Shown: in pieces, positions 3,160-62,569 of the stretch
Numbering within the stretch: the first letter of the stretch is position 1
How the letters are laid out: each line of letters begins with the position of its first letter
Assembly (NCBI GenBank): GCA_002118135.1
Contig: BDIU01000358.1
Location: 299,895-363,894, forward strand
Source: Trebouxia sp. TZW2008
Lineage: Eukaryota; Chlorophyta; Trebouxiophyceae; Trebouxiales; Trebouxiaceae
Reading direction: 5' to 3'
DNA: 64,000 nt
Notes under the pieces: model-generated
Told to the model about the DNA's origin: nothing
What the model saw: the letters and a program-made list of their open reading frames with translations, nothing else
The model's database searches: none
Translations under genes and position numbers: made by a program

Positions 3160-6100
3160 TCACCTCATGGGAGTTGATGGCTGTGGTGTTGGCTTATTTC
3201 CCTGTACTTCTACTTCGCTCAGGAATGACATCAAGGGCGCTAGCTGACCAGTTTCTCTGAGTGTCCTGATCCAACACGCAGCAAAAGTCAGTCAGCACTT
3301 TTCAAAACACCGTCACCGATGACACCATCGACAACCAAACATTGCAAAAGGCAAGCACATGAGACACAAAAGGCTAACAGCAGGGAAACATTGCCATATA
3401 CTGTCAAAATGAAAGCTGGTCTTTCCGGATTTTAGTTCGCTAATTTTGATTTGCACCAAACAGGGTCATCAAACCTCACTAGCAACCATGCAGATGCTGT
3501 TACTGCTGCTGGTACTGCAGCTGCTACTGGTGCTGATGCTAATGACAATGATGGCCATGACCAAGGAGAATTTGGGTGAACGCAGAGAGCTCGTTTTGGC
3601 AAATAGCCTCCTAGGACAGGCCAAACAGCTGGCTTATGCTAGCAAGCATGCTGGAACTTACGCTGCTAATGATGCTGCTGTTGCTGTCAATGATTGGCAT
3701 GATCAGAGGCAGTTTACCTGAAAGCAGAGAGCTCAATTTTTCAAGTGACCTCCTGGGAAATGCCGAACTGCTGAATTACCCTAGCAGGTAATGCTGAAAC
3801 CGATGCTGCTGACGCTGCCCACTTGAATTATCAGCATGATGACAAGACGTGGTGATGTGGCAATGATCAGAGGCAGGTTACCTGAAAGCAGAGAGCTCGT
3901 TTTTGCGAATGGCCTCCTGGGACAGGCCAAACAGCTGGCTTATGCTAGCAAGGGACTGGGGCTTGCCCGTGAATATGCCATAGCGCAAGGCAATGACTTC
4001 CCCTTCACGCTCTGGCAAAGATTCCAACACTTCCTCAATGTTGCTTGTGAACCTTCTGCAGCACAAAGGATCAGTCGTTTTGCATATGTCTTCAGCAAAC
4101 TGCATCAAATCACTGCGAACACAAATGCACAATGCTGAAATTGTCTCATTTATCTCCAGAACTTCCTCGATTACACTTGTGAACCTTTTGCAGCACGGAT
4201 TTTGCAGCACAGAGGGTTGACCATGCTGCATATGTAATAACAGTAATAACAGCACTCACTACAAATTTTAGCATACATTGCTGAGTACGTGTGGCACACA
4301 TTCTGTCTCGCCAGGCAGGCTGGTTTTGAGCGTCCGTTTTGTAGGTTTTGTCTTCAAGCAAACTACATCAAATCATTACAGATACAAACACACAGTGCCA
4401 AAATTGTTGTGTTTAGTCATGACATTGGTGACAACCAACTGCTGCCAACATAACAACTGGCTGCAAGGCGCTCCACCAGAGTGTCCCATCATCATCGTCA
4501 TCAAACTGAAGGTCTATCACAGCACAGATGCTGGTAACAGAACCGAACAAACAGTGCTGTGTTTGGCACACTTACGACGTTGACATGGCAACTTCACGGC
4601 TGTCTTCATCAGCAGGCTCGTCAATGCTGGCGCAAAGAAGGTCCAACAGACTGTTCTGACCGCCTGCATCATACTGAGCCTCTATCGGAAGGGGATTGTT
4701 CTTGACGTGTGCGAGCGCCAGCACCACCCGACTGAGAGGTTGATCAATCTCTTTCGCGATCTCTAGGCCTGTTGGCTTTCGATCCCACTCCTGCACAACA
4801 ATATAGACTTTGAAAATTGCCTACAAGCTGAGCCTCGATCACAACAGAAATCCTGACGTTCTCAAGCACCGCCCTGCTGAGAGGTTGATATAATCATCTT
4901 TTTATCTTCTGCACAGCTTGAAAGGAGTTTTGCTGAAGGGTGCAATTACATGCAACTGTCACTGCGCTGAGTGCTGCAAATACTGCACACAAGACTACAC
5001 AGTGGAGTGACAATGCTGGAGTTTGGCCTTTGCCTGATTAATCTTGCAGCTGAGCCCCTTGATGTTCACAGGCAGCCTCGCAATATCCTCATGCAGGCAG
5101 CTCATGCTTCATGAACAAGAGCTTGTGTGAATGCAGATTGCACAGCAAGAAGAGCTTGTGTGAATGCAGGTTGCACAGCAAGAAGAATCAGAAGTAGGGC
5201 ATACCTGGTAGAACTTGGCCTTTGCCTGGTTGATCTTGATGTTGAGCTCCTTGATACTGACAGGCAGCCTTACAACATCCTCATGCTCCATCATATAGCG
5301 GGAAATGGCCCTGCGTAACAGTGCAAGTGGTAAATAACAGTAACAGTAACAGTCACAGCAAGAATAGTAACAGCAGTAACAGTGACAGTAGGACTAGTAA
5401 CAAATCCCATAGCCCTTGGAATGGCCCCATGCTCCATCATGTAGCAGAAGGTTGACCTGCAAAGCAGAAAAGGCAGCAACTACCAGTAGTCACAATAACA
5501 GTGACAGCGAATGGAGCCATCCTCCATCTTGTAGCGGATGGTTGCCCTACATAACTCAACTTGATGAGCCAGTGATAAGCTTATGCAGCAACTTTTTTGT
5601 TTCCATTCAGTCTAAACGTCCACACACTGAAAGGGCTAAGGATACAAATCTTTGTAAATGGGCTTGGGCCCTGCACTGTCCCAAAGCCCACTCCCCACCA
5701 GGTGGACTAGTCGTGCTAGTCAGGCTCAGCAGGCCCAGCTAGATACGTACCAGTTTGCGCATGCAGCACCGAAGTGACGCCCAAAACAAGCTGGCTTAGC
5801 GGGATAGGACTTGGGCCACACATTCCTAGCACATGTGCTGGAACATGTAACCCTGATAACAGCCATGAACTGGCAATTGGGCAAGACAGCTTATTTGTTG
5901 ATCAAAGTGTAGGCCTAAGTGCTGAGTTTGGGCGACCAGGTTCTGCTTTGCATCATAGCCAACAACAGCACCCAGCTCAAGTGTTGATGATGATGTTCGC
6001 AACTTACTTGATGATAGTAGTATAGGCGCAAGTGCTGAATTTGGCACCCAGGCTGTGCTTTGTGTCATATCCCAACAACAGCATCCAGCTCAATTGTTTG

Positions 6101-9100
6101 GTGGTGATATTTGCAGCTTACCTGTTGATCAAAGTGTAGGCATAAGTGCTGAGTCTGGCACCCAAATCCTGCTTTGTGTCATATCCCAACAACAGCACCC
6201 AGCTCGACTGTTGGTGATGATATTGGCAGCTCAACCGTTGATGATAGTAAAGGCGTAAGTGCTGGATTTAGCGCCCAAGTTCTGTACAGGCACAAGGGGC
6301 GAATTTGGTACCCTGATTCTGGGATGTACCAGCTTACCTGTTTATGACCGTGTAGGCGTAAGTGCTGAACTTGGCGCTGAGATTCTGCTTTGTGTCGTAG
6401 CCAACTGCAGCCTTGAGCAACGCAACTTCGCCAACACCAACGAGCTCATTGAAAGGAAACTCTGATCCCTGGCGCTTCACTCGCCACACAAAGCTCCGCA
6501 CCAGCCCCTTGTGATAATGCAGCAGCATCTGCTTAGCACGTTCACCCCTGCACCACAAATGGCGATCTATTGCCTGAGCTTGCACTGCAAAGGATTTAAG
6601 ACCCAGCTGATGTATCAACTCATTGTGATAATGCAGCAGCATCTGCTTAGCACGTTCACCCCTGCACCACAGGTGGCGATGTGTTGCCTGAGCTTGCACT
6701 GCAAAGGGTGTAAGACCCAGCTGATAATCATTCATTCATTCATTATGCACGTGGGCTGGGCAGGCGCAGCAGGCCCAACTAGGTACGTACAGAAGCAATC
6801 GACTGTCTCCAACCAGTTCGATCATGTGCTAAACGAAAGCAATATTTGTCAAACCATTGTCGTTGTGCGGTAGCATCTGCTCGACTCTTTCTCATCTGCG
6901 CATACAGAATCAAATAAGGTGCGCCCCACATTGCAGCAGACACCTGGACCTTTGCAACACCGCAAGATGAAAGTGATCTTGCTCGTGATCCTGTCTGCAA
7001 AGGCAACATGCGTTCTGAGCACGTGATATTGGGCTTGCTGTCCAGCAATGCGAGCACAAATGCTGTGCGATCAGATGCATTGGCATAACCGCAAGGTTCA
7101 GCGCATTCTTCCTGCTCCAGATTATACATTGCACATGCAGGTACCTGTACATGACACACTTTGCTCAGTTTATTGCATCTGTCTTGACCTTGCTTGTTTG
7201 TGTCTTCTTCACAGCTCGGGCATGGCTTCTCATACTATTGTCCATGGGATCACATGAGAGACGCTATGGCACACTTCGCTGTCCATGCAGTATGACCAAG
7301 CAAATTGGAGTTGCCCATGTGAGAATCAAGCCCACATGTGGGACCTGCCAAGCACACCAAGAGTCCCATGCAGCAACACTTGTGAGACATGTGATCACAG
7401 CAGGCAGCAAGCTAGCAACCACACCTGTCAAGCCTCTGATGTAACTGATTGAACGTTTGGGCACCAACAGCATCCTTCCATTTCTTCAGGCGCTGGTAGT
7501 CATCTGCTCTGATAGCCCCGTCTACAGCTGGTGCTGCCGCTGCAACGGTGGACTCCAAAGGGGCTGCATCGCTTGACTCTTCAGGACTTGCATCTGTTGG
7601 TGTTGCTTCTGGAAAGTATACAAGGCGCCGCTGTTGCTCTATGAATGCTGCATCCTGCATGACAAAGCCTCATGTTGTGGCGAGGTGCTCTGGTAGACAG
7701 GCTGAAATCAAGCACAGCAACGCTGCGCACATGTAGGTATGCTGCATTCGGCACGACAAAGCCTTTGATCAAGCTTTCTGCTGGACAGGCTGACATCTGC
7801 AAGCTCTGATTTGTCACATCAAGGTGTCAGCGATGCATGCATATGCTCTGGTAAGGAAATGAGGCGCCACTGTTGTTCTATAAACGCTGCATCCTGCATG
7901 ACAAAGCCTGATGTGTTTGAGAGACACTCTGCTAGTTACACTGGAACCTGCAAGCGTGTCGGTGATGCATACATATACTCTGGGAAGGGAGTGCAGGGCC
8001 AAGGCTGCTGTAGTATGCTGCAGCCTTATGCGTCCTGCATAACCAGGCCTTGTGTTGGCAAAAAGCGATGGTGCATCAGTCAAAGGAAGGTGCAGTGACG
8101 GCATCTGTTGTCAGCATGGTCGTGCAAGCATGCCAATGCTGCAATGTGGTATGAAGCCACTCAGTGTGATAGTACTGCACTGGGCTGTATCTGTGTGATA
8201 CCCAGCAATGTTGGCACTGAGCAGACAGAAACAGGTAGGGCTCAGTATGCATGTACAAAGCATTGCATCAGCCAATCAGCATGCCTGCCTTTTCAAATTG
8301 TTGTGTACAATTTCAACAAAAGTAAAGCTCATGCACTGCAGCAGGGCAGAGAATGCTGCTCTGATTACAACATCAACCAGCACCTCACAGCATTCAGTTA
8401 CAGACAATGGCAGCTTTCGACTTTGCTGCAGACGCACATGCTTGCACAGCAGACATGCAGTTGTACATTAGCAAAGCTTGCCTGGATAGCTGAGGATAAC
8501 ACATTGTGTTCCTCCACACTCAACATCTTGAATACATTGCCATCAGACCATAGTGAAGCTGCAGGCATGCACAGCCTGTGCTTACCTGTATAGCTGAACA
8601 CAACACAAGGTCTTCCTCCACACTCAACATCTTATCTACATCGCCATCAGCTCTTGACAATAGCGGCGGCTGCCGTCCTCTGCGAACAGGGGCTGCTTCC
8701 AGTGTGCCAGGCGACGGTTGCCTCTCCCGATCAAGCGGGTTTGAATAGTATCTGGCCCGTTTTACTGCCAAAGCTCTGGCATGAGATGGTCCCTGTTGCG
8801 TGTCTTGCCTGTAACCAGCTGGACCTGCCTGCTGCGGTGTGGCGTTGCTGCCGCCTGGTGATGTAGACCCTGGGCGACTGTATGCTGCAGCTGGTGTCGG
8901 TTTGACCTGAAGATCAGACTGTGTGCTGCGGTAAGCAGGAGTTGCAACTGCAGCCTGACTGGTGCTCTTCCTACCGCCTTGAGATCTATTTGCATCTGTG
9001 GGCGACGTCTGTCTACTTTGCCTGTATCCAGGTGAAGCTGACCGCTGTGGTGTGGGTTTAGCCTGGAGATTACCCTGTGGGCTGCGATCAACAGGAGCCA

Positions 9101-10049
9101 CAACTGCAGCTTGACTGGTGCTGCTTCTGACATTCATTGGTCTGTTTGCATCAGTCGGAGACTGCTGCCTAGCTTGTCTGTGACCAGGTGAACGTGACCG
9201 CTGTGGTGTGGGTCTGGCCTCGTTTGGACCCACAACTGCAGCTTGACTGTCTCTCTGCCTGGCATTGTTGAAGGTGTTTTCAGCTGCTCTTGTTCTGGCT
9301 ATTTGCCTTTCTGTAGTAGGTGGCTGAATTGTCTTTGCTGCAGCTGTTGAAGCTTGAGCTGGTTTTGCAGGGAGACCTGGACTGGCTTGATCAAGAGTGC
9401 CACTCACAGATTGCTGCTTGAGCCTTGATTTGGAGTTGGACCTATTGCGTGGCCTTGTGGCAGCGGCTGCTGCTTGCTGACTTGGCTGTGAAGCAGATGG
9501 ATCAGCACCGTCAAGACTGTCACCTGAAGGCTTTTGTTTGCCCCTTCTAGGAGATCTGCTACGCCGGCTGAAATTGCCAGATGCTGTCGCTGTTGCTGTT
9601 GCAACTTGGCCATCACTGTTGGGAGGTTTGCTGTCACTACGCTGCTTGGTGCGGGGAAAGGACCTGCTGTTGCCCGAGCGTCTGGCTTTGGCTGGACCAG
9701 GTTTGCTAGCGGCTTGCTTAGCAATGCTGTTGTTTGAGTCAGGTGTCTGATCACTGCTTACTGCTTGTGTGGGAGGAAGCGTCTCAGCTTGGTGCTGCTC
9801 AGGCACACCTTCTCTCTGGAGCTGGTGCAGCTGCAATTGGTCTTGCAGCAGTTCCTGCAGGGGCCGGTCAGTTGCTGTGTTCGCGTTCTCGGGTGTGCTG
9901 AGGACGGCGCCACGGGCATTGCTGACAGTCTGTGCCGACTCCCGCGTCAGTGACGCAGGTCCTGCAAAGGGTCTGAATAGAGGCCTGAAGCGTTTGCTGG
10001 ACGGGAAGGTCTGGCACAGAGGAGAGGTTCTATGACAAATTCCACGCAT
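3160..10049 (-). CDS. Plastid-type RNA polymerase sigma-70 factor
   Basis: Exons in transcription order: 10049-8586, 7654-7425, 6547-6338, 5310-5205, 4790-4576, 4112-3882, 3265-3160 (TGA). All junctions are GT-AG and in frame, giving 853 aa. By family it directs the bacterial-type plastid polymerase to promoters. The first ~470 residues are a transit-like start (MRGICHRTSPLCQTF) and a Ser/Pro/Gln/Arg-rich repeat region. Sigma region 1.2 starts at LSVEEDLVLCSAIQ (end of exon 1). Region 2 is in exons 3-4 (GERAKQMLLHYHKGLVRSF, then AKFSTYAYTVINRAISRYM). Region 3 is in exon 5 (RKPTGLEIAKEIDQPLSRV). Region 4 with its helix-turn-helix is in exons 6-7 (LPEREGEVIALRYG, SISQLFGLSQEAIRKNE). The Trp-Trp pair usual after FSTYAY is Thr-Val here. 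A GTG eight codons upstream is in frame, but the first ATG is at 10049. An alternative end would splice a 43-nt intron after 3164. Confidence 0.88.
3590..3790 (-). repeat. Donor-side copies of sigma exon 6
   Basis: Two diverged copies (about 3588-3655 and 3725-3785) of the end of sigma exon 6, which is centred on ELSAFR and its donor at 3881. The nearer copy keeps a GTAAAC donor. The farther copy has lost the donor and gained a TAG stop. Confidence 0.75.
4140..4410 (-). repeat. Acceptor-side copies of sigma exon 6
   Basis: Diverged copies of the start of exon 6 lie upstream of it in transcription order. One is near 4150-4225 (IEEVLE part) and one near 4350-4405, matching the acceptor region at 4090-4145. 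Confidence 0.7.
5025..5185 (-). repeat. Copy of sigma exon 4 interior plus a short minisatellite
   Basis: 5025-5095 is a diverged copy of the exon 4 stretch encoding KELNIKINQAKAKF. 5118-5185 holds two copies of a ~37-bp unit (AGCTTGTGTGAATGCAG...). Confidence 0.65.
5410..5550 (-). repeat. Acceptor-side copies of sigma exon 4
   Basis: Two copies (5412-5465 and 5505-5552) of the exon 4 start, recognisable by the YMMEHE-coding part and the acceptor context. AACAGT-type short repeats fill 5330-5400 between them and the true exon. Confidence 0.7.
5690..5853 (-). mobile_element. Adjacent short dispersed repeats B and A
   Basis: 5690-5760 contains family B (core GGCTCAGCAGGCCCAGCTAG then TACGTAC). 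5786-5853 contains family A with core AGCACATGTGCT. Both lie in sigma intron 3 and recur elsewhere in this window. They carry no coding capacity. They look like short non-autonomous elements (MITE- or SINE-like), but no terminal repeats or target duplications were proven. Confidence 0.5.
5886..6300 (-). repeat. Four donor-side copies of sigma exon 3
   Basis: Copies near 5888-5965, 6003-6060, 6122-6200 and 6236-6290 repeat the end of exon 3 (AVGYDTKQNL...FSTYAY part) with its GTAAGC donor region. The donor is kept in the copy near 6122 and changed in others. Spacing is about 115 bp. Confidence 0.85.
6618..6726 (-). repeat. Acceptor-side copy of sigma exon 3
   Basis: A close copy of 6510-6610 containing the GERAKQMLLHYH-coding start of exon 3 and its upstream acceptor region. 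The tandem unit is about 109 bp. Confidence 0.85.
6727..6835. mobile_element. Dispersed repeat B with CATTC-type simple repeat
   Basis: A short ATTC run (6727-6745) is followed by family B: GTGGGC..., then GCAGGCCCAACTAGGTACGT, then a TGTCTCC segment. The same order occurs inverted at 15698-15945 and, weaker, at 49683-49775. Confidence 0.55.
7730..8060 (-). repeat. Acceptor-side copies of sigma exon 2
   Basis: Copies near 7735-7800 (partial), 7845-7925 and 7975-8055 repeat the exon 2 start (DAAFIEQQRR part) with the preceding TCATGCAG acceptor. The one at 7845-7925 is closest to the true exon. Confidence 0.75.
8465..8580 (-). repeat. Donor-side copy of sigma exon 1
   Basis: A diverged copy of the end of exon 1 (MLSVEEHNVLSSAIQ versus MLSVEEDLVLCSAIQ). 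Its donor is GCAAGC in place of GTAAGC. Confidence 0.8.
8870..9260 (-). repeat. In-frame ~48-codon repeats inside sigma exon 1
   Basis: About three tandem coding units share the order KPTPQRS.SPGYRQ, QTSPTDANR, STSQAAV. They lie in the low-complexity N-terminal region of the sigma factor. They are in frame, so they lengthen the protein without breaking it. Confidence 0.75.
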
Positions 10050-11569
10050 ATCGATCTCGCTGCTCAGACGCACATATGGCAGTGACTTGCCTCTGAGGCC
10101 GAGACTGCACCAGACAATCTATCGCAGATTCACCCAGACCCGCACGCGCAATAGGATTACGCTCGCAGCACGGCAAGCGTTGACGTCTCTAACCAAGCCG
10201 TCCACGACACTCTTGTTTCATCTATCACGTGGTTATCCAATCTCGACCTATATTTAGGTATGATTTGCATTGATTCATTGTTGATATTGTCTGTTTGACC
10301 CCCCTGTTGGGTCCCAAGGACAGTAAAATTGATTGATTGATTGATTGATTGATATATAAGATCTTCTTCTTCGCAAACCTATGTGAATAGCGGCATCCTC
10401 AGGCCAAATTTCATGCTTTAACAGCCTAAGCAGCTGTGCGAGTGGTTCCCCCACACGTAACATCAGTTGTCCCGTCGAGACTGTGTGATCCTGCATCCTG
10501 TGGGATCAATGGCACCCGTCATGTCATTCTGAATGCACTGAAGATCCTTCAATCAACATGGATGTCATTGAGACAGCCATAGACTGCAGAATTGGGTACG
10601 AATTCTCGAAAATTGTACAGTGCACCTTCATGGTGCGGACGGCCCATGACCGTTGTTGCCCACATGTTTTGTACACTACCAGGCAATCAAAAGCACTGGT
10701 CAAATGCCTCATGCGCTCAATGACATGTCAGTATGTACCTCTCAGACCTAGCTATACATAAACATTCATTCCCTTGCAATTTGCAGTGCTGAACGCCTAT
10801 GTGTAAACTCAAGCTGCTGTCAGACAATTCAGACTTGCTGACAACATGCATCAATTAGGCGCCAAAACTTCCAGACGCATAAGCCCATTGCCACAGCAAG
10901 CTCATTATCAATGCAAGCTGGTTATCAAAGCAAGCTGCTCATCAAGACAAGCTGATTATCGAAGCATGCTGCTCATCAAAGCAAGCTGATTGTCAGCTTG
11001 GCATGGCTGGCAACTGCTTTCATCAGCATTGCAAGACTGTGCCAATCTTGTTGCTGAACAAGCTATCTCTGTCCAGTGCATGTCAGACAAAATCAAAACG
11101 CTGACCCCAGGAGCATTAGTCATCAAAGAGCGAGCCTTGATCCCTGGCCTGATCTATTGTTATACCCTGCAGTGTTGCTTGACCCTGTTTTTTGCTGTGT
11201 AAAAACCCTCCGCCGACCAAATGCACAGTATAAACCCAAAAGAAAGCAGCAGCATGTGTGACACAAGCATCCTTGCATCAGATAGGTGCAGAACACAGCT
11301 CCCCAGCTTCTAGCAACCCCAACACAAAGCAGCCACAGCCGCCATACAAGCACCCTTGTATGTTTGATCCAGACGACAGCTCTGCAACTTCTCGCACATT
11401 CAGCTGCATTCAGGGCTGCTTCTGATCGTACAGGGCGCTAGCATGATGCCAAACGACATGGTCTTTTCTGTTTCCTTTCTACCAGCATACTCAGAGGGCG
11501 TCCAGTGGTATAAATGTTGCAGACATCATGTTTCAACTCCACACAGGCAGCTGACGTTTGCTGTTATGA
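10050..11569. other. Intergenic, sigma 5' side to bZIP 3' end
   Basis: No gene is supported here. It holds a TTGA microsatellite (10326-10352) and degenerate ~20-bp repeats at 10905-10995 of the type AAGCTGNTTATCAAAGC. A minus-strand open stretch at 10275-10496 has a plausible helical segment (LAQLLRLLKHEIWP), but no splice partner or homologue was recognised. It could be 5' leader of the sigma gene. Confidence 0.5.
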
Positions 11570-18100: not shown

Positions 18101-18181
18101 TGCAGCGCACCTGTGCCAATGCCCAAAACATGCCTTCAGTTTATGGTCTCGGAGCAGCTTCAGCAGGGTTCTTGATGACAA

Positions 18182-27600: not shown

Positions 27601-28360
27601 GCATGTAGCTATGCAGCATGTAATCGCCTCAGCGAAAGCTGCATGACGCTGCATGGACAAAATGGCTGACATGTTAGTCTGGCAACAATGCTTAGGAATC
27701 AGTACCCTTTGGCTAGTACCAAGCTGTTGACACGTGCACCGTCAGCAGCAGATCCTGCAACAGGGCCTAGCATGAATGGTCTTAGCTTGCTAGACTCTCA
27801 GTTTCACCATACTTGTCGTTCACCGAATGACAGTCAGAGCTTGCCAGTAGATTCCTAGCAAGGATAGTGCTGCTTGCAACAAGGGGCACAAAACACAACT
27901 TGCAGGTGCTTCAGCCGTCTGCAAACCATGTTGAGGCTTGAACCCATGACCTATTGCAGCCGTGCAGATGTGGCTTGCAAACAGATGCACAAAGCACAAT
28001 GCCCAAGTGACCTCTGTGTGTCAAACCACAATGCAGACAGGTGATTCAGCTGTCTGCATACACTGCTGAGACTTGAACCCATGACTTGTTGCAGGCAGTG
28101 CAGATGCTGTTTGAGCAGAGCCAAGCTAGCTTTGACCCAAACACCATCATGGCCCTACTGCAGCAGCACCCATACCATGTGGACGCCCTCCTCACCATGC
28201 AGGAGCTCTACAGGTTTGTCCAGTCTTGACTCTTCTTCAGATGTACAGGTTGATCTCCACTGATCCATGGTGCCTTTGTCAACCTGTAGGGAGTGCTATG
28301 CCATCTTCTCTCAGGTCATATACGCCTTCATGATTGCTGTCTCCGTTGCTGATGCTTCGC

Positions 28361-28391
<31 letters not shown>

Positions 28392-33568: not shown

Positions 33569-33644
<76 letters not shown>

Positions 33645-37883: not shown

Positions 37884-38314
37884 CGGAAGCTGCAGTCACG
37901 CCGGCTGCTGAGCACGTGCACGTTTCGAACACATGCTAGACAGCCGGCAGCATCGATGCAAGCCGTTCAGATTGTAAACGCTGCTTCTCTTGGCGATCTG
38001 TCACGCAATGTGCATCAAACAGGCACGCGAAGATGGTGCAAAAGCTTGGTCAAAGCTAGGGTTAGCTCGCAAGTAACCCTAAACAAGTACGGCAAGCGTG
38101 TTTGACCTCGGCAAGCGCGTGCGGGTTGTGAGCGTTCATTGCAAGTTTGCTCTGATCACTGCATCTAATAAACGTTACCGCGCACCGCGTGTAATAAGCT
38201 TTTCATGCAGTGCTTACAGCAATCCCGTACTCTTGTCAATCTGACCCTGTAGCGTTGTTCTCATTTTCCCTGTGCCTGGTCTTAAGGCAAATCTTCAGCT
38301 TGCAGCTCGTCTAT
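37884..38314. promoter_or_regulatory. Divergent spacer, plastid gene / SPOC gene
   Basis: Should contain both promoters. A CTTGCAG acceptor-like site at 38302 hints that the SPOC gene may have an upstream noncoding exon. No other element is assigned. Confidence 0.35.
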
Positions 38315-53034: not shown

Positions 53035-56000
53035 ATGAACGGTGTAAAATGTTTTGCACCGCAGATGCATACAGGCCAATGTAGGATGGCGGCCTGCGGG
53101 CCGCGAAAGTTGGTCTCTCGAGGCGGTTCAGTGCAAAGTCGCACACTCGGAACCGGACGTCATAGCCTACAAACCAGCAGGCAGCATTGTCAGTTGCGAT
53201 GCAATGCAAAGAAGCGCAAGAAGTCCCAAAAGCTCGCAGACGATGTTCAAGAGGAAAGGCCTACAGATGAGGACTACATCCAAACAACCCAGACACCACT
53301 TGGCGATTCAGAGGATGCTCAAGACGCAGCTGCAGACTTGTCAGCAGACGACATAGACGAAGCAGACTACGAGGAAGCGGAACCGCAGGCAAGCTATGCT
53401 CAGCCAGCACCACAGAGAGCACAGCAAACTCTTCGAAGATCTGTTCCAGCACCCCCACCAGCCCCACCACGGAGGGACTCAAGTCAGTTACTTGGACTAG
53501 CTGGCGCGGCGTTGGCATTTGTTGCAGTTGTTGCTGCAGCTGTGTTTGGCTTCAAACGCGTTTCCTCACAGAAGAAAGCAGCGACAGCAGACGATGCACC
53601 AGCAGGAGCTGGGGACCAGGCAAGTTCGTTTTGTCTCATACTCTTACAGCAGCCCTGTTTCTGTTGCTTTTGCAAAATGCTGACAAGGTGCGCTTTATGA
53701 CAACCTGGGCAAGCACCCAGTCACATGCATGGCGCGTCATAGAATTGCATTGATGATGTGCAAAATGCATTGCATAGCAAGTGGTGCATGCTAGACAAAC
53801 AAGGTATTGAGCCAAAGCACTTGCGCACAAGTATGTGGTATGCTGTGACATGTGGAGACTATGCCACGCCAACATGCTTCTGCAGTGGTGTGGTGTGGTG
53901 TGACATGTGCATGTGCAAGCCATGACAATGTTACATGCTTGCTCAGCGCTGTCTCACCTGCAGCTGCTTGCAACAGTGCAATTAGTGCTGCAGCGTAAGG
54001 TCGATGTGTATAAAATCCTCAAGTCCGCTGTCCCAGCGATCTGCTGCAATGCCAATCGTACGCATGAACTTTGGCATTGCACCTTGTCTTCGGAAATTCT
54101 CTTGCGCAAGATAGAGAGTTGAATTGTTTCGTCATCTGCTTGCTGCAGAAACAATAACAAGTGGAAATAAGCACACCGTAGTTTGCTGCAGAGACAGGAA
54201 ATTGCAGAATACAAGCGCAATTTGCTTTGCTTTAGTAATACAGAAAAAGGAATGGAGAGTGGTGTTGGTTTCTTGAAGTGAATGCAGAGTTCAAGCGCAA
54301 TGTGCCTTGCTGCCGAAATGAAGAAACACAGACTTCAAATGCAATGTCCCTTGCTGCAGAAACAGAAAGCAGCAGAGTTCAAGCGGGAAGCTACAGAGCG
54401 TCTGGACAACTTTGCAAGGTCACTTACAAGCGAGGCCTCTGTGCAGTTATCTGCCAAGAATCTAGGCGACGAGGGTGTGTCGTATATCATCAACTCTATG
54501 GCTTTCAACAGCAGGTACGTGAACATCACCATCTTTATCATCATCATCACCATCATTTGCTTCACTGAGGATCTATGACCCAGCTAGGTGCATACAGAAG
54601 CAACGAACTGCTTCCAAAGCAATCTGCCTTCAGCTACTTCATACCAGCATAAATGAAACCTTGACCTAATCACAGTTCTGCTTGCAACACAGTAGACTGC
54701 AGCAGCGTTATTGTCTGTCAAAGAAGTAGAAAAAAAAAGAGCTATTGAACAAGCTGATTCAACAATCATTTCCAACTTGCCTCATACATGTTGCACTCTG
54801 AATTCAGGTATACATATGCCAATTTCCAGCATCTGACGTGTACATTTCTTTAGATTGTAAAACAACCTGAGTGATCGCCCGCATCTGATTTCCCTTGCAC
54901 ATGTTGTTCTGGATTTAGGTGCACAACAGCAGATCTCATCCAAGAGAGGCATCGGTCACATGGGCTTCATCAAGCTAAGTCGATGATAGTCACCCAATCT
55001 AATAATATATAACAATGAAAGGTTACACTTTCCAGCACATGTGCTAGGTGTGTGTGGCCCAAGTCCTGTCCCGCCTGGTCTGAGCGACACAATTTGCCTC
55101 TCACATATTGCCCTGATTCAGGTGCTCACACGCCGATTCAGCAAGAATGGCATTTGTCACATGTGTGTCATCAGAGTGTTGGTGTAGCTGACTGGATGAG
55201 CACTTGCAAACTGACTCACACAATTTAACCTGATTCAGGTGCACATATGCTGATTTTAGCAAGAATGGCATTGGTCACATGGGTCTGCTGCGCATGCTTG
55301 AGTCCTTCAAGAGCTGTGGCAATATAGAGACTCTGATTCTGGATACCAACAGCCTGGGAGATGATGGCGCAGAGGCTATTGCACAATGGCTAGCAGGTCA
55401 GCCACGTTGACAGTTTCACATTGATGATGTCAGTATGCAGTGATGACGTCAGTGTGCAATCATGTATACGTGCAGCAACATAGAGCTTTTGGTGCTGGAC
55501 ACCAATACGTCGGGTGTGGACAGGGTGAAAGCTATTGCACAATGGCTAGCGGGTCAGTCTCATGCAAAGAGTACTAGTATCAGTAGTGTGTAAGCAATTG
55601 AAGTAGTAACGACAGCAGTGGTTATGCTGATGGCCATAAAGATCAATCACCAAAAGTTGTTATGAGTCCATACACACTCTGGGGTGGTCATGGTGCAGAG
55701 GCTATTGCCCAGTGGCTAGCAGGTCAATCACATGCTAAACACTTTATATACATACATAAAGACTAACAATCAAACAATCTAAAATAATTACAATACAATC
55801 ACATAACCAATATCAACACAATTCAATGAAATCAATAGTTGTTCATGATTACAGTATTGATATTAGTGATCGCCACAATCATGACAGCAACAGATCTTAT
55901 CAACAATCGACAGCAAGATCAGTATGCATATGGCGCCATGACAACAGTGCAGAGGCAACTGCACAGGTAGTAGGTCAGTTACAGTTCATGTCTATTCATG

Positions 56001-59000
56001 CCACAAGAAACAAGCAACCAGGATGCGTGATAGTACAGGTAATGCCAGCGCTTCAGATGAAATCGAGTAGCAATAACATTCTTCAAGTCCGGCAATATTG
56101 ACCACCAGAGTGTTGTAATTCTTGCGCTCAAAACAAGTTTGGCTTGGCAGATCAGATCATGTGCTCCTAGCACTAACGCTGACAGCCCTTGCTCTCAATC
56201 ACCGTTGTGCTTCTTGACAGGTGATGCCAGCCTTTGGACGCTGAACCTGAGTGCCAACAATATTTTTCCAAGTCTCTGCCAACATTGCCACACAGAGTGT
56301 TGTTATTGCTGCCCTCAAAGCAAGCTGGCCTTGCGCTGCTTATCATACTCACCACATCTAGCACTAACGCTGACAGATTCTGACTAAATTGACGTTGTGC
56401 TTCTTGACAGGTGAGACCCAGCTTCGGACGCTAAATCTGAGTGCCAATAACATTGGTGACAGAGGAGCAGCCGCCCTTGCTGAAATGCTCAAGGTCAGTG
56501 CATCAACACATATACCTGAAGCAGTCATTGCATATTCTAATTTTGGTCTTATGGATGAGTCCTTGCATCTTTGCCCTTGCTGAGATGCTCAAGCTCAGTG
56601 CATCAGGGCATCTACGCAATGCTGCTTTTTGAAGCAACTTATAGGAAGTTTTCCTATTTCTCTGGGCCAAGAAGTGGAGCCTTGTATGCTGGTTTGACTT
56701 ACTGGATTGCTTGTAAGTTCTGCAGCTTTGCCCTTGCGAGAGGTCAGTACATTTGCCTGATGCTGTTCTTTACATGGGGCGTTGCAACTTGCAACTTGCC
56801 TCTTTCTCCGCTCAAGGTCCCTTCGTGCAAGAAGTGAACTTGTGTACCTTGGTCTGACTTGTTGGAATAGTTCCAAAGTTCTGCAGCTTTGCGCCTGTGA
56901 GATGCTCAGGGTCAGTGCGTCAGCGCATTTACCTGACTCAACTAGTGGATTTCCTTATCATGCTTTTACCTGTTGGATTGTGTTTGAGATGCTCAAGATC
57001 AATGTATCAATTCATATCCCTCATGCAATGTATACATTCTCTCTTGATGAGCAAGGCCTTTGACAGCCAGAGTCAAAGATATCAACGGTGAATGCTTGCC
57101 AAAATGTCATTGCTTCACGACATCTCTGACTGGCTTGTTGCTGTTGTCGTTGGCATCTGATGCTGCGCTTGTCACAATCGCATCAATTCAAATGCTCGCC
57201 TCATTGGTTGTGTATGTGTGAAAGCCCACGCGCACACATTGCAGTCGTCATCAAATGTGTTCCAACTTTTGTGGCAATGGCCTTCAGGTGAGCACAACAT
57301 TGACCACCATGTCTGCTGATGCAATTTGCCCCTCATGTCGTGCTTGTTGTCATATGCTTGAACAGATGCGGCATTCTTAGCTCATGTAGTCATGCAGAGT
57401 TGACATGCGTTTGCTTAATCACTCCAGATGATCTATCACTTGTGGCATTGGCATTCAGGTGAACACAACGCTGACCCACCTGGAGCTGAACGGCAACGTC
57501 ATTGACTATGATGGCATCACGGCTCTCTCAGAGGCGCTAACAGACAACGAATCGCTGCAATCACTACACATAAAGTAAGTCTAGCCCAACCCCTACATGT
57601 GTTTGGAGGTCGGCCCAGTCCCTGCATGTAAAGTGAGGGTGGGGTAATCTCTGCATTCATGGACTATGATGGCATCAAATGCTGGAATCACAGATCTCTC
57701 AGAGGCACTAACAGACAATGAAGCACTCCAATCCCTACATGTATAGTAAGTCTGGCCCAACCCCCACATGTAACGTAAGGCTGGCCCATTCTCTGCATTC
57801 AAGTGAGTGGCGTAATTTCTGCATTAATTGTCTACGATGGCATCACAACTTTGTCAGAGGCACTAACAGGCAATGAAGCGTTCCACTCCCTGCATATAAA
57901 GCAAGAATGGCCCAAAGTAGAACCAGCAGATCTGCATCCAGCATTCAGCAACAGTTGAGTTTGCTGTCAGCTTGACAGCTGTGAGCTTTGACTTTTGTTG
58001 TGGCCTTTGACACTTGTCCCTGTACCTCCATTACTTTGCTCTTGAGGGGCGCAGCACACCAATCTGTCAGACGACTTGAGAGAGAAAAACGCCGTACAGG
58101 ATGCTGCACATGGAAGACAACAATGAGACACAGCCCTAAAGCTATCTGCGGCGGTGGCAAGACAAACACCGCTTTGAGAGAGCTGTACAAAGGCGATGAG
58201 AAAGAGCACAGGAAGCATTTCATTACTCCTTTTGCAATGAGCTTCATGCAATGAAATTGTGATCATATTGTATGACTGTGCTGCAGTGACAATTATGTTG
58301 GAGCGTTAGGGGCAGCTGTTTTGTCAAATGCTCTGAAGACAAACAAATCCTTGAAGGAGCTGTATATCAAGGGCAATGAGACAGAGCACCAAAGCTATCT
58401 CATTACTCTTTTTGGAATGAGCTTCATGCAATGAAACTGTAATCATATTGTATGACTGTGCTGCAGTGACAATTATGTTGGAGCATTAGGGGCAGCTGTT
58501 TCGTCAAATGCTGTGAAGACAAACAAATCCTTGAAGAAGCTGTATATCAAGGGCAATGAGCTGGGCAACGAAGGCAACCACGCCATCTGTAGCACTGTTC
58601 ATACTTGTTCATGTCACAACAATCGTGCGGTGTGCTGCAGTGACAACTATGTTGGCGCATTAGGGGCAGCTGTGCTGTCAAATGCCTTGAAGACAAACAA
58701 GTCTTTGAGGGAGCTGTATATCAAGGGCAATGAGCTGGGCAACGAAGGCATCAAAGTCATCTGCGGGGCCCTTACACAGCGGCAGACAACCTTCAAAGCC
58801 CTAGATGCTGGTAACAACAGGTACTGCGATGTCTTGTCCAATAACTGCATCTCCAACAACAAAAGCTGTCTTTGCGTCATATTGTTCTTACTCAGTACTA
58901 GCAATCCAGTAGAAACGCAGGGATTTGATTGCAAGTTGCCTTGTTACGCAAATGTCTTGTTGCTGAGTTTCCTTACATCAAATGTCTAAGTCATACACAG

Positions 59001-62000
59001 CTAGCATCTGTGCTGAGTACGCTGCTGCTGTTGTTATAAGCTCCTGCATGGATGATGTCCGAGAGCATGTGCATGCATGCAGTTTGGGTGAGGAAGGCGC
59101 TATTGCCATTGCAGACTATGTCAACAGAGTGGACGCACATACACTTTGTGAAGTAGTCTTCTGCTTACAGTGTGGGTGACGATGGTGCAATCGCCATTGC
59201 AAGTTATGTCAGCAGAGTGCAGGCACATACATTTTATGAAATAGTTTCTGCATGCAGCCTGGGTGAGGAAGGCGCTATCGCCATTGCAGACTTTGTCAAC
59301 AGAGTGGAAGCACATACATGTTGTGAAATAGTTTTCTGCATGCAGCTTGGGTGAGGAAGGCGCTATCGCCATTGCAGACTTTGTCAAGAGGAGCAAGAAA
59401 CTCAAGGAACTGAATCTATACATGAACGACATTGGTAATGGCGGAGCTTACAAGGTAATTGCACAGAAACACCGCTTCTTCCGCTAGTTGCAAGGCTTTC
59501 TACTCTCAGACAATTGCTGATGCTAGAGTGGGGATAGTGACACCTTTGATCAGTGCTTTTGAAGTGGTTCAGCTTGTGAACAGACTTGGTTGCTCAAAGA
59601 CAGTCGCTTGGTGACTATACGTACCTAGCAAGGCCTTTGAGCCCTAGTATGCGTGATGATGTAACGCATGTACGCATGTACGCATGTACGCATGTACGCA
59701 TGTACGCATGTATGCATGTATGTATGCATGTATGTGTGTGTGTGTGTGTGCATGTTACCAGGTAATGCTGTTTGCACACACCTTAGTATGTTGGGGGCAG
59801 ATTCTGCATTCACTGACATTGGCAGTGGTAGGGCTAACCTGATCACACCATTGGCATCCATTTGTCATGCTATGGCCATTGCTTTGTTGGCTCTTGCTTT
59901 GCTGCTGTGTGGCCACGCTTTCCTGTTGATCAACTTGACTTACCTGCACATGATGAGCAGTCATCTCTGCGAGCATTGTTTCGACAAGCACAGCTGATGT
60001 GGGCTGGCATTTCATGTCTCTGACTGGTGCATCACCAACTGCAAGTGCCAGGAATGTGCTGCATGAATTGGCCAAAGTTGCTTGCCCATGTCATCCCATA
60101 TGCAACAGTCAACACTAACCTTCAGCTTGAATGCTCTTTGCAGCTAACAGAGGTTAGTCAATCGGCAGCATTTTTGTGTGACAGGCATGAAATCTGGTTG
60201 AGTTTCCATTGAGTTTTCATAACATGCTTTGCTATGCAGATCAGAAGACTTGTGCACTGTTTCTTCACAGTCCTGAATTGGGAATCTGGCTCAGACATTG
60301 GTACAACTGGACCAGTTTGCCACACTGCTTGCAGCTAGCAGAGGCCTGGAATCACAAAACAGTTTGCAGTTGTTAGACATTGGCAGCAATACCTTTGCTG
60401 CTACTGCAATTTTATGCTACACATTCTGTTTCTAATGCAAGTTGAATTGTTGGCAGATAGCAGAGGTTATAAATTGCAACAATAGCCTTGAGTTATTAGA
60501 CATTGCGGGTAACACCTTTGTCACCATTGTTACTCTATCTTCCTGCGTTCTGATTCTGGTTGCAGATTTCCTGAATGAAATTGACCTGTTTGCAGATAGC
60601 AGAGGCTATAAATCGCAACAACAGCCTTGAGTTGTTGGACATTGGCGGCAACAACATTGGACCTGAAGGTATCAAGGTGCTGCTGTCATCCCTTAAAGGA
60701 AACCTAACCCTCAAAACCCTGGAGCTAGGGTACAATCCCATAGGCGAGGAAGGGGCCAAAGCCTTGGCTGATGTCATCAAGTACGACCTTGGGGTGAGCT
60801 GACCCCACCGTTCTCAGTTGGACCCTTACCTTATGTTGACAAAGAACCCAGAGTCTGCTGAATGCAATGACATATAGCGCATTTGTGTGTAGTATACACT
60901 GTAGACTGAGTCATGCACAGCTCCTCTTTTGCATGATACTGTACACTGTGTAGTATGCACTGTACCCCGAGTCAAAGCTCCTCTGTTGCATGACTGCTGC
61001 AACACACATAAGCATGCTTCATGCCCTGAGCAAAGCGTTGACATAAGTGTGCAGGCACGGTCAAGAAAGCATCAATAAGTCAAGGAAAACGGATGCATTT
61101 CAGCATCACGATGTGACCCTCTTTGAGCAAAAGCCGCCCAGGAAGTGCATGAAACATTGCTCAAGTTGTGTGTGCTAGTCCAGATCGAGGTGTTGAAAAT
61201 GGGCTGGTGCAAAATAGGGGAAGGCAATGGTGCAAAGGCCATTGCAGACCTGATACTGTTCAACACCACGCTTACTACACTGGACCTCAGAGGGAACAGT
61301 CTCAGCAATCCAGGTAAGCATCCTGAAGTAATTGATGGCATCATTGTCCTTTGAAAGCTTGTGGATTCACGACCCAGCTAGGTGCACAGAAGCCATGAAA
61401 CGGCTGCAAACGTCAGCTACAATGGTGCAAAAGGCATTGCAGACGCGATACTGCTCAGCATCACACTCAGAGGCAACAGTCTCAGCAATCCAGGCAAGTC
61501 TGGTCAATCTTTTAGGTCGTCAGCTAAGTCTTGTGCCTGTTAGCATATTGTCTTCAAGTATGTATCATGCATGTCTAGGCAGCCTGGTTGACATCTGTCA
61601 TGTTTTGGGTTGGGAATCACCCTTCCTGTCATTTGTGTCTCTCAACAGATTCAGACCATCGAAACTACTTGTTTTCTCTGTCTACAGCACCACATGTGCA
61701 GTGTGCATGCTGCATAAGCATTGCCTCTGCTCCAGGACCTCTTGCCAAATCACCCTGATGTCCTTGCTGTCCTGATTGATTGTAACACCAAATGTCTGAA
61801 AGGGAATTCTGGTCTTCATTCTATCTGAACTTTTGATGACTTCCTCTTCACTGTTGTGATGAACGTTGCTGGGTCTCACAGGCGCAGCTGCCATCAGTCA
61901 AGTGCTGAAGGAGCACAACAATGAGCGTCTGGCAGAGATAGATTTAGTGAATCATCAGGTGTGAATGCAACACCGTCAGGGCTGTCAGCATTGACAGTTG

Positions 62001-62569
62001 CTGTGTTGTCTTACAGGCGCGGCTGCCATCAGTCAAGCGCTGAAGGAGCACACCAACGAGCGTCTGGCAGAGATAGACCTAGGCTACAATGAAATCAAGG
62101 ATGAAGGCGCCTGTGCAGTTGCTCAGGTGAGCATACCGACATGATGACACGCTGTTAGAGGGTGTTTGTTGTGCTCTGCATCATGCAGTGTGCTGTGCTG
62201 TGACATGTAACGATGCAATCATGGCATCACGTTTTGTGTCATGCTACATGTTGATGCTTGTGTGCTGGACTGCCCATGCTTGATTGCTCGTCACCATTGT
62301 CAGCGTGCTTGCTGATGAGATTGCATGACTGCTAGGCGCATGCAGAAGCTATGCAATGTCCCAAGGAGTTCTGTTCAAAGTCATTTTGTAACAGGCAAGT
62401 CACTGCACAAATCTTGGTACAGGCACTGAAGTCCAATCCAGCTTTGGCGCCAAAGGATGTCAAGATCAGCTCAAATTACATCACAAGATTTGGGCAAGTG
62501 GCCTTGACGGAGGCTTTAGACATGGTGTATGAAATGGGAGGCCAGCGAATGATCACAATACATTTCTGA
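53035..62569 (+). CDS. Leucine-rich-repeat protein, transit-like N-terminus, one TM segment
   Basis: Exons: 53035-53619, 54360-54514, 55239-55396, 56411-56493, 57459-57574, 58641-58820, 59346-59454, 60596-60793, 61184-61313, 62017-62126, 62423-62569 (TGA). All are in frame, 656 aa. Intron 1 uses a GC donor (CAG|GCAAGT). The N-terminus is Arg/Ser/Cys-rich and plastid-transit-like. An acidic region follows, then one membrane segment at residues ~152-173 (LLGLAGAALAFVAVVAAAVF). The rest is a ribonuclease-inhibitor-type LRR array: TLNLSANNIGDRGAAALAEM, ELYIKGNELGNEG, IAIADFVKRSKKLKELNLYM, DIGGNNIGPEGIKVLLSSL, TLELGYNPIGEEGAKALADV, EIDLGYNEIKDEGACAVAQ. A membrane-anchored protein-binding role in the plastid envelope or thylakoid is inferred. 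No nucleotide-binding domain is present, so it is not a complete NLR. Confidence 0.82.
54130..54330 (+). repeat. Acceptor-side copies of LRR exon 2
   Basis: Short copies near 54140, 54190 and 54282-54325 repeat TTGCTGCAGAAACA and the AEFKR-coding start. Confidence 0.7.
54800..55200 (+). repeat. Three acceptor-side copies of LRR exon 3
   Basis: Copies near 54800-54840, 54918-54980 and 55122-55185 repeat GATTCAGGT and the YADFSKNGIGHMG-coding start. A family A dispersed repeat lies among them at 55021-55085. Confidence 0.78.
55021..55085. mobile_element. Dispersed repeat A in LRR intron 2
   Basis: The best-preserved family A copy: GGTTACACTTTCCAGCACAT, then GTGCTAGGTGTGTGTGGCCC, then AAGTCCTGTCCCGCC. 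The palindrome AGCACATGTGCT is intact. Confidence 0.55.
55470..55985 (+). repeat. Donor-side copies of LRR exon 3
   Basis: Copies near 55470-55560, 55685-55730 and 55940-55985 repeat the AEAIAQWLAG-coding end with a GGTCAG donor. Confidence 0.78.
56210..57030 (+). repeat. Copies of both edges of LRR exon 4
   Basis: 56210-56270 is an acceptor-side copy (LWTLNLSANNI). After the true exon (56411-56493), donor-side copies of LAEMLK|GTCAGT lie near 56568, 56735, 56890 and 56985. Confidence 0.78.
57270..57330 (+). repeat. Acceptor-side copy of LRR exon 5
   Basis: Repeats TGTGGCAATGGCCTTCAGGT and the following ACAACATTGAC against the true acceptor at 57458. Confidence 0.7.
57600..57910 (+). repeat. 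Donor-side copies of LRR exon 5
   Basis: Copies near 57600-57640, 57655-57760 and 57830-57905 repeat the YDGITALSEALTDNE-coding end. Some keep GTAAGT or GTAAGG. Confidence 0.83.
58100..58610 (+). repeat. Acceptor-side copies of LRR exon 6
   Basis: Two near-identical ~180-bp units (58283-58460 and 58463-58610) and a decayed one (58100-58215) repeat TGTGCTGCAG and the DNYVGALGAAV...ELYIKGNE-coding start of exon 6. In the first unit the coding frame stays open through this whole part. Confidence 0.9.
59075..59335 (+). repeat. Three acceptor-side copies of LRR exon 7
   Basis: Copies at ~88-bp spacing (from about 59077, 59165 and 59253) repeat ATGCAG and the LGEEGAIAIADFV-coding start. The true exon 7 starts at 59346. 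Confidence 0.9.
59664..59751. repeat. ACGCATGT / TG microsatellite
   Basis: Five ACGCATGT-type units grade into ATGT and then a TG run, in LRR intron 7. Confidence 0.92.
60130..60520 (+). repeat. Acceptor-side copies of LRR exon 8
   Basis: Copies near 60138-60160, 60325-60405 and 60450-60520 repeat TTTGCAGATAGCAGAGG and the SLELLDIGGN-coding start. Confidence 0.83.
61390..61505 (+). repeat. Donor-side copy of LRR exon 9
   Basis: Repeats the GAKAIAD...LRGNSLSNP-coding end. The donor reads GCAAGT in place of GTAAGC. Confidence 0.83.
61870..61965 (+). repeat. Acceptor-side copy of LRR exon 10
   Basis: Repeats the CACAG acceptor and the GAAAISQALKEH.NERLAEIDL-coding start with few changes. Confidence 0.87.

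Follow-up and report, generated by a model that had tools for sequence, protein, structure and literature searches.

Exon-edge arrays in a 64-kb Trebouxia window

The window analyzed here, a stretch of 64,000 nt from Trebouxia sp. TZW2008, carries minus-strand genes with arrays between 3507 and 23023, among them a sigma-factor gene (sigma-70 model), and, on the plus strand, TCF25, a TFIIS/SPOC gene and an LRR gene. Scans of the window with Rfam (gathering threshold) and for tRNAs gave no matches. Of the 47 array components found between 3507 and 62849, 37 reach a predicted splice junction, 8 are confined to introns and 2 lie inside exons. Hence, the count of more than 30 arrays given by the first-pass annotation holds. 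Arrays of the window are listed below.

Minus-strand genes
3507-3952 (-), array 3' of the donor of exon 3882-4055, sigma-factor gene; period 142
4023-4407 (-), copy 5' of the acceptor of exon 3882-4055; in part also similar to dispersed repeats
5014-5551 (-), copies on both sides of exon 5205-5310
5887-6418 (-), array 3' of the donor of exon 6338-6547; period 113
6502-6725 (-), young contiguous tandem duplication across acceptor 6547; 46 nt exon and 64 nt intron, 92% identity
7608-8026 (-), copies 5' of acceptor 7654
8476-8650 (-), copy 3' of donor 8586
11742-12486 (-), multi-copy array 5' of acceptor 11815
13214-14043 (-), six-copy array with a unit of acceptor plus exon start (153/145 nt); several copies called exons by the gene finder
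15985-16653 (-), array 3' of donor 16444; period 124
16682-17027 (-), weak short match at acceptor 16707; 30 nt, lag 316, part matching dispersed repeats
22852-23023 (-), copy 5' of acceptor 22910

TCF25
26774-27170 (+), copies 5' of the acceptor of exon 27066-27231
27158-27565 (+), copies 3' of the donor of exon 27066-27231
27903-28113 (+), copy 5' of acceptor 28095
28749-29048 (+), intron-only array, comparison class
29558-29749 (+), copy 5' of acceptor 29702; 48 nt exon and 17 nt intron, 89%
29866-30033 (+), intron-only array, comparison class
30074-30194 (+), intron-only array, comparison class
30325-30627 (+), copy 3' of donor 30413; 89 nt exon and 16 nt intron
30805-31494 (+), three copies 5' of acceptor 31420
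32148-32573 (+), two copies 5' of acceptor 32510
32578-32837 (+), copy 3' of the donor of exon 32510-32654, interrupted by an internal deletion
32906-33973 (+), array 5' of acceptor 33929; part matches elsewhere in the sample
34070-34448 (+), copies 3' of donor 34123
34452-35249 (+), array 5' of acceptor 35196

TFIIS/SPOC gene
39635-40552 (+), five copies 5' of acceptor 40526
44884-45604 (+), copies of about 181 nt 5' of acceptor 45473; two taken for exons by the gene finder
46243-46540 (+), copy 5' of acceptor 46436

LRR gene
54203-54382 (+), 44-nt unit 5' of acceptor 54360, beyond the curated span
54888-55284 (+), copies 5' of acceptor 55239; part matches elsewhere in the sample
55319-55738 (+), copies 3' of donor 55396
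56035-56454 (+), array 5' of acceptor 56411
56473-57042 (+), copies 3' of donor 56493
57258-57476 (+), copy 5' of acceptor 57459
57501-57915 (+), copies 3' of donor 57574
58159-58763 (+), copies 5' of the acceptor of exon 58641-58820
59074-59390 (+), three 88-nt copies 5' of acceptor 59346
60325-60659 (+), copies 5' of acceptor 60596
60886-60993 (+), intron-only array, comparison class
61225-61498 (+), copy 3' of donor 61313
61873-62082 (+), copy 5' of acceptor 62017; 66 nt exon and 9 nt intron, 91%

The full sample comprised 294 kb, namely the window and 23 tiles from elsewhere in the 68.5 Mb genome. Local direct repeats were accepted at a score of at least 24 and a lag of 20-900 nt; one dinucleotide shuffle per sequence served as control, and inverted matches were counted within 900 nt. 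The sample yielded 532 direct local matches and 30 inverted ones, the shuffled sequences none, and the preponderance of direct copies is what local repair or slippage would produce. The filling of introns with exon-edge copies is confirmed as a real observation. Array units are mostly 80-180 bp long and cover about 20% of predicted intron bases, with identities from about 64% to 100%, in line with the near-identical to faint range described earlier. The arrays are private local duplications: for 142 of 152 no match was found elsewhere in the 294 kb, while the remaining 10, including 4023-4407 and 16682-17027, share some sequence with other places in the sample. Counting either side, one or more intronic copies accompany 129 of 769 predicted junctions (39/154 in the window, 90/615 in the tiles); if only the expected side and canonical sites are counted, this holds for 69 acceptors and 45 donors. 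Scaled from the tiles, where about one junction in seven has intronic self-copies, some 27,000 junctions of the 68.5 Mb genome would have copies, an extrapolation from a small, non-random sample.

Exons across the 294 kb are ab initio predictions, made with stricter gene-finder settings than an initial set that called about 2,500 mini-exons. Gene predictors will take such copies for exons, as happened in the TFIIS/SPOC and LRR genes at 45005-45203, 45289-45384 and the first part of 58467-58820. Other doubtful calls were 44555-44658 and most of 28290-28684, and neighboring genes were fused. A curated set was kept apart, consisting of parts of TCF25, of the TFIIS/SPOC gene (up to 49908) and of the LRR gene, all checked against orthologues; TCF25 exons were located by TBLASTN with Trebouxia TCF25 orthologues.

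One-sided order of the copies

The curated genes contain 32 components, of which 25 span a splice junction: 17 lie upstream of an acceptor and 8 downstream of a donor. The others are 4 intron-only arrays, 1 exon-exon array and 2 downstream pieces belonging to donor arrays already listed. The proposed rule, that intron sequence 5' of an exon repeats the acceptor and exon start and sequence 3' of it the exon end and donor, was borne out: all 25 junction arrays are correctly placed, and no wrong-side copy was found in the curated parts of the three genes. TBLASTN recovered the TCF25 exons and, adjoining them, separate partial matches, which upstream correspond to the exon's first part (29565-29651, 32298-32363, 31120-31227) and downstream to its last part (30522-30611, 34153-34245). 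Across the 294 kb, 207 de-duplicated copies minus 39 on exons without both junctions left 168. Upstream copies hold the acceptor in 89 cases, the donor in 2, exon interior in 6 and both edges in 1; downstream copies hold the donor in 51, the acceptor in 6, interior in 11 and both in 2. In a looser count, acceptor copies were upstream in 127 cases and downstream in 25, and donor copies downstream in 93 and upstream in 27. The rule is less clean on uncurated models, in which the finder sometimes takes the wrong copy for the exon. One-sidedness follows from geometry, since a junction-crossing duplication spares the mRNA only with the extra copies on the intron side. Random templated insertion of nearby DNA is disfavored by this order and by the scarcity of interior-only copies (17/168).

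A gap of at most 15 nt in the best match, as in a contiguous tandem, was seen in 23 of 33 intron-only arrays and in 23 of 90 nearest junction pairs; of these 90, 48 count as adjacent if similarity across the gap at z of at least 3 is accepted, and 42 lack such similarity. At least two gaps between copies hold shorter, sub-threshold copies, as reading of the sequences revealed. The exon edge matched without the adjoining intron in 32 of 63 pairs, compared with 0.31 simulated, and in 22 of 44 pairs with exon identity of at least 80%, compared with 0.26. Simple contiguous duplication, simulated with indel rates guessed from few alignments and with the intron part being merely decayed, gives 26-31% where about 50% was observed, and was rejected as a full explanation. 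Part of the pattern is nevertheless decay, since in all 38 adjacent pairs matched flanks are more alike than mismatched ones (9.58 versus 8.16, sd 0.26); in the exon-edge-only class, 28 pairs selected for low similarity, the values are 7.71 and 7.60. Old copies held under constraint were likewise rejected, as the real exon is close to the copy at synonymous sites too, which points to a recent origin of the edge that they share. Similarity was higher for the copy closest to the exon in 37 of the 56 exon sides without a tie (57 sides overall; sign p = 0.02, Wilcoxon p = 0.10), a weak sign of re-copying from the exon.

Excess of arrays at splice junctions

The first-pass annotation had proposed, as a null model, that tandem duplication happens everywhere and survives where it spans a junction, and that the link to junctions would fall if junction arrays did not exceed the intron-only rate. 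Among arrays with periods of 40-300, setting aside 9 in-exon, 6 gene-end and 3 intergenic ones within that range, 92 of 120 span a junction (0.77, 10-kb block CI 0.68-0.84). Uniform duplication, simulated so as to include the longer visibility of arrays that hold one constrained copy, gave 0.50-0.54. In the curated genes, leaving out the exon-exon array and the two donor-array pieces, the fraction was 25/29 (0.86) against 0.44-0.49 simulated. Junction arrays thus exceed the intron-only expectation, and the proposed tie with junctions or exons survives this check; the plain null underpredicts them, although its expectation of neutral copies agrees with the data.

On intron columns only, 46 junction rows stand against 30-50 intron rows (46/76-96; null fraction 0.357). 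This range reflects that with exons masked there were 46 junction, 50 "intron" and 5 intergenic rows, 20 of the 50 lying inside junction arrays; in the curated genes, 8 junction and 11 intron rows were obtained. With intron sequence alone the excess shrinks to 1.7-2.8-fold, which is the safer estimate. Selection aside, placement was not random relative to exons on either full or intron-only scoring. Copy number also differs, with a median span/period of 2.9 in junction and 2.0 in intron-only arrays, and two or more matches in 67% and 36%, respectively.

We consider it fairly probable that small tandem duplications are frequent and remain visible, perhaps with renewed amplification, owing to the constrained exon among their copies. 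Units of roughly 80-180 bp would arise often in this Trebouxia-like genome, and those inside exons would mostly be lost; of the 11 in-exon arrays, 9 have, by eye, a best lag divisible by 3. With breakpoints in an exon and its adjoining intron, the mRNA would stay intact if the splice site continuous with the remaining exon is used; the extra copy would end up in the intron and drift neutrally, a course that would force the one-sided order expected from geometry and seen in the counts. In contiguous junction arrays the intron share (lag minus exon part) is, by eye, no shorter than about 21 nt, in agreement with the requirement for a branch point, the motif of which peaks weakly at -25 to -15. 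The spliceosome would probably find the true site by exon definition, as presumably only the true exon pairs an acceptor and a donor about 140 nt apart. Exon-anchored arrays would stay recognizable longer because one copy is under purifying selection, an effect seen in part; in the younger pairs, divergence of exon columns is about half that of intron columns. Where both parts had at least 25 columns, exon/intron identities were 91%/80%, 86%/78% and 83%/75%, and alike below 75% exon identity. Higher copy number, exon-edge-only copies and the leftover excess suggest that arrays probably re-expand and are also copied anew from the intact exon edge, through unequal exchange or gene conversion. 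The earlier interpretation is partly supported: the copies are private, one-sided and neutral-looking, its plain null is incomplete, and a decoy role finds no support.

A possible, though rather doubtful, alternative is a bias of the duplication process towards exons or exon-intron boundaries, by way of transcription, chromatin or splicing-linked breaks for instance, so that duplications across junctions are born at 2-6 times the frequency of intron-only ones. It would account for the rates per kb of allowed placements, 1.6 at junctions, 0.32 intron-only and 0.09 intergenic, and for an in-exon rate of 0.23 where most events must be lost. Intergenic arrays number 3 in 34 kb of placements and intron-only arrays 28 in 87 kb, a scarcity between genes that a uniform rate does not predict. 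Persistence of the excess on intron columns is also in favor of biased birth, as are 23 junction against 12 intron-only arrays at an intron-part identity of at least 80%. The excess is greatest at best identities of at least 85% (41 junction versus 6 intron-only arrays) and absent in the oldest class, 60-75% (9 versus 12), where longer visibility alone should favor junction arrays. However, identity is not age if copies are refreshed, and at an intron-part identity of at least 85% the counts are small (11 junction and 8 intron-only arrays). Breakpoints of contiguous junction arrays appear, by eye, scattered across tens of nt to either side, a spread that speaks against cutting at the junction itself. 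Exon-side breakpoints show no clear AG or GT enrichment, and cryptic splice sites there, as from an RNA intermediate, were rejected on this ground. Composition was dismissed as a cause, the GC of exon-masked intron rows (0.485, some rows lying inside junction arrays) equaling that of introns (0.479).

In a wider and likewise rather doubtful reading, introns would owe most of their growth to added copies of their own exon edges, with duplication preferring exons or boundaries and the constrained exon re-seeding the intron. If it were true, splice-site choice would have to use exon pairing, as many junctions face competent-looking self-copies. The arrays themselves point to one way in which introns may lengthen, the median length being 625 nt for introns that hold 60 nt of array or more and 276 nt for the others.

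Neutrality of the copies and comparison with known systems

That the copied splice sites are selected decoys or splicing enhancers is quite improbable. Many copies do score in the normal range: above the 10th centile of real sites lie 76% of the acceptor copies (66 testable) and 56% of the donor copies (77). The acceptor AG is kept in 81% of copies, more than the all-dinucleotide level (0.68) and, at 123/152, more than the 101.2 expected from exon identity squared, hence there may be some selection on copied sites. Against the same dinucleotide in the exon part (73%), however, the difference is not significant (CI -0.01 to 0.165); the donor GT is kept in only 58% of copies (53% for its control), and at 61/120 falls below the 73.7 expected from exon identity squared. 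The third-position share of differences, 0.45-0.47 in pairs of at least 80% identity and 0.37 between two intronic copies, revealed no coding constraint on the copies within this range, and copy-to-copy divergence looks neutral. Neutral-looking copies lend no support to hidden exons or to the decoy role raised earlier.

Tandem exon duplication, as in mutually exclusive exons, likewise places local exon copies in introns. Trebouxia copies differ in that they nearly always carry one splice site, end inside the exon and look neutral; acceptor and donor occur together on 3 of 168, in keeping with the earlier remark that such a copy cannot be a cassette exon. The same count makes it very unlikely that whole exons were duplicated, lived as alternative exons and then decayed. 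A few copies regain exon similarity past a gap, as seen near 29565-29651 and at 61225-61498, and in the exon-edge class 6 of 41 testable pairs reach z of at least 3 for the remaining exon, as expected of dead exons, but the third-position share of that class (0.46) is without the excess expected after long coding constraint, and whole-exon decay would not give one-sidedness. An artefact of gene models or assembly is hardly credible, for although the gene finder took copies for exons and fused genes, the pattern is stronger in the orthologue-checked genes (25/29), and most copies are diverged and so presumably not assembly duplicates.

In the AGGT-type model, introns are created by tandem duplication. 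Intron creation or relocation by tandem duplication (PMC2891723) resembles the present case in duplicating splice-site-bearing sequence, but Trebouxia introns pre-exist, the copy is wholly intronic and seemingly no new position arises. An intron created from an exonic duplication would have one repeat copy in the exon across the intron, whereas in 25 of 25 curated junction arrays the intron repeats the near edge of the very exon that it adjoins. Introners (PMC9860276) also mold intron sequence by repeats, as one family in many unrelated genes, whereas Trebouxia copies are private to one exon (142/152 arrays unmatched elsewhere in the 294 kb). A candidate source of the duplications may be the fill-in and joining of breaks with overhangs, known elsewhere. 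In mammals, repair of such breaks by Pol alpha-primase/CST and NHEJ yields duplications (PMC8355091, which cites a patch-mediated break model in rice), and both systems give local, direct, head-to-tail copies. The insertions described in that paper are short (<100 bp), unlike the Trebouxia units, mostly 80-180 bp, and Trebouxia arrays are exon-edge anchored, with a junction excess and about 20% of intron bases covered. A literature search, at the level of search listings, returned no description of such exon-edge arrays; the word intron is absent from the main text of PMC11523091 and, in the text available for PMC12712428, occurs in one reference title only.

The arrays offer a genome-scale natural experiment, in an alga, on exon definition and on how the spliceosome ignores near-identical sites about a hundred bases off. 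In Trebouxia, a lichen-type green alga, the copies are decaying, each with a splice-site look-alike.

Gene models and repeat load

Gene models were produced with a small scripted gene finder trained on the window together with 23 ten-kb tiles from elsewhere in the same genome (294 kb in all; tiles hand-picked, not random). The source assembly comprises 68.5 Mb in 527 contigs; published Trebouxia genomes are given as 63–74 Mb with a GC content of about 50–51% (PMC11523091), a paper that also provides six PacBio assemblies (C0004–C0007, C0009 and C0010). The TCF25 and TFIIS/SPOC proteins of the window match those of Trebouxia strains at 58–67%, and the source organism is treated here as a Trebouxia species that is probably not closely related to the matched strains. 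The gene finder predicted 434 exons and 375 introns (median lengths 139 and 346 nt), with donors of roughly AG/GTRAGY and acceptors TGCAG/G, and fused some adjacent genes. Exons of three window genes (TCF25, the TFIIS/SPOC gene and an LRR gene) were checked against orthologous proteins and the models corrected, curation of the TFIIS/SPOC gene stopping at 49908 with its 3' part excluded. In the TCF25 model, the short exon at 28632 was entered with its start one base late. Junctions outside these three genes are predicted and may be wrong; the model of a sigma-factor gene is backed by Pfam domains.

The gene at 37600–51900 encodes a protein with a TFIIS central domain and a SPOC domain. A search with this protein returned three Trebouxia proteins and one other at 63–67%, as well as a weak match to a bird death-inducer obliterator. 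A CACT microsatellite of about 60 units (50375–50620) lies in a predicted exon of the gene, an exon call that is doubtful because orthologues span only about a third of it.

Local direct matches numbered 532, versus none in the shuffled sequence and 30 inverted matches. Over the 294 kb, predicted introns had 21.5% of their bases within direct matches, exons 17.4% and intergenic DNA 4.8%. In the tiles alone the corresponding shares were 19.5%, 16.1% and 5.4%, and the window is thus only somewhat richer than the rest of the sample. Matches were clustered into arrays by overlap, so that array counts vary with the threshold. Tandem arrays were few in predicted intergenic DNA: 3 over some 34 kb of placements, against 28 over some 87 kb in introns. 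This suggests a link to genes, either of the duplication process or of the survival of its products. Within predicted coding exons of the window, tandem duplications were present at 8779–9220 and 49051–49200 (periods 156 and 60, both multiples of 3); across the 294 kb, the best lag was divisible by 3 in 9 of 11 in-exon arrays.

One-sidedness of the junction arrays

Junction arrays are local tandem copies spanning a splice junction. According to the first-pass annotation, copies upstream of an exon carry the acceptor and the exon start, and copies downstream carry the exon end and the donor. This rule was borne out: the acceptor edge was found in 89 of 98 upstream copies and the donor edge in 51 of 70 downstream copies, with 17 of 168 copies confined to the exon interior and 8 of 168 carrying the wrong edge. 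An initial count under looser settings separated the two sides less sharply (acceptor copies 127 to 25, donor copies 93 to 27). None of the 25 junction arrays in the curated genes violated the rule. Young arrays include those at 6502–6725 and 59074–59390.

A tandem duplication across an acceptor gives two successive units of acceptor plus exon start; since the second unit alone is continuous with the remaining exon, the first turns into intron. Duplication across a donor is the mirror image. The one-sided rule itself requires no special mechanism. Contiguous arrays included, at the least, about 21–30 nt of intron (read by eye), and the branch-point motif showed a weak peak 15–25 nt from the acceptor. 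This minimum fits a requirement that the functional copy retain its own branch point.

Excess of arrays at splice junctions

The first-pass annotation had made the link to junctions depend on junction copies exceeding the rate of duplication within introns. For this comparison, duplications were simulated by random placement on array-collapsed genes, with exons constrained, a similar score threshold, and divergence including indels at rates estimated from few alignments. Junction arrays outnumbered those expected from simulated duplication, making up 92 of 120 arrays (0.77, block CI 0.68–0.84) versus a simulated fraction of 0.50–0.54. The fraction was 57/79 in the tiles alone (0.72, CI 0.64–0.81), and in the curated genes 25/29 against a null of 0.44–0.49 (binomial p about 3e-5 with the null set at 0.489). 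At a best identity of 60–75% there were 9 junction and 12 intron-only arrays, whereas successive higher identity classes gave ratios of 23:4, 19:6, 24:4 and 17:2; the excess therefore lies in the more similar arrays.

As a strict control, arrays were detected on intron columns only, so that conserved exon columns could give no aid. This yielded 46 junction rows versus 50 intron rows, 20 of the latter falling within junction arrays, against a null of 0.357. Since the excess survives this control, it is real in the 294-kb sample, where exons outside the curated genes are predicted. Its size is uncertain, with odds of 1.7–2.8-fold by the strict control and up to about 6-fold in the curated genes.

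Of 90 nearest pairs, 42 had a match that broke off and left copy and exon separated by over 15 nt of DNA without similarity; in 31 of these 42 the match took in only 0–25 nt of intron. Such exon-edge-only copies made up 26–31% of pairs under simulated contiguous duplication and about 50% of lag-matched observed pairs, a difference that indel turnover faster than simulated could narrow. Two explanations of this class remain. Conversion or unequal exchange may have re-copied the constrained exon edge onto an intronic copy that was already there; the higher copy number of junction arrays relative to intron-only arrays, and the slight trend towards greatest similarity in the copy closest to the exon (37/56), fit repeated re-copying but do not prove it. 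Alternatively, the copies may reflect duplication events plus extra rearrangement.

Fate of the copies and other repeats

Where copy and exon were 80% identical or more, third positions accounted for a share of 0.45–0.47 of their differences; between two intronic copies the share was 0.37. The pattern fits an unconstrained copy next to an exon whose own changes are mainly silent. Relative to exon identity squared, AG in acceptor copies was above expectation (123/152, expected 101.2) and GT in donor copies below it (61/120, expected 73.7). Retention was 81% for AG and 58% for GT, versus 73% and 53% in the same-dinucleotide control, which takes away most of both the surplus and the deficit; hence there appears to be no convincing selection for or against copied splice sites. 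By sequence score, many copied sites still look competent. As exons measure about 140 nt and the introns around them about 350 nt, the true site is likely chosen by acceptor–donor pairing across the exon.

Small tandem duplications are known, one documented origin being the repair of breaks that carry overhangs (PMC8355091). Searches of open-access full texts turned up no account of introns filled with exon-edge arrays of this one-sided kind. We rate the arrays as ordinary mutations of unusual density, filtered by splicing, with the excess at exon edges unexplained.

Two dispersed repeats were also observed in the window:

10253–10353, element of about 100 bp with an ATTG microsatellite at its end
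15731–15790, repeat of about 50 bp, adjoining a GAATG microsatellite
6750–6799, the same repeat
5715–5750, the same repeat
49706–49730, the same repeat

The first element has at least 41 further matches in the genome (85–99% identical, some of them fragments), with more copies in tiles L009, L019 and L030, and looks like the tail of a short, SINE-like retroelement. More copies of the shorter repeat were present in tiles L009, L014, L021, L027 and L030.
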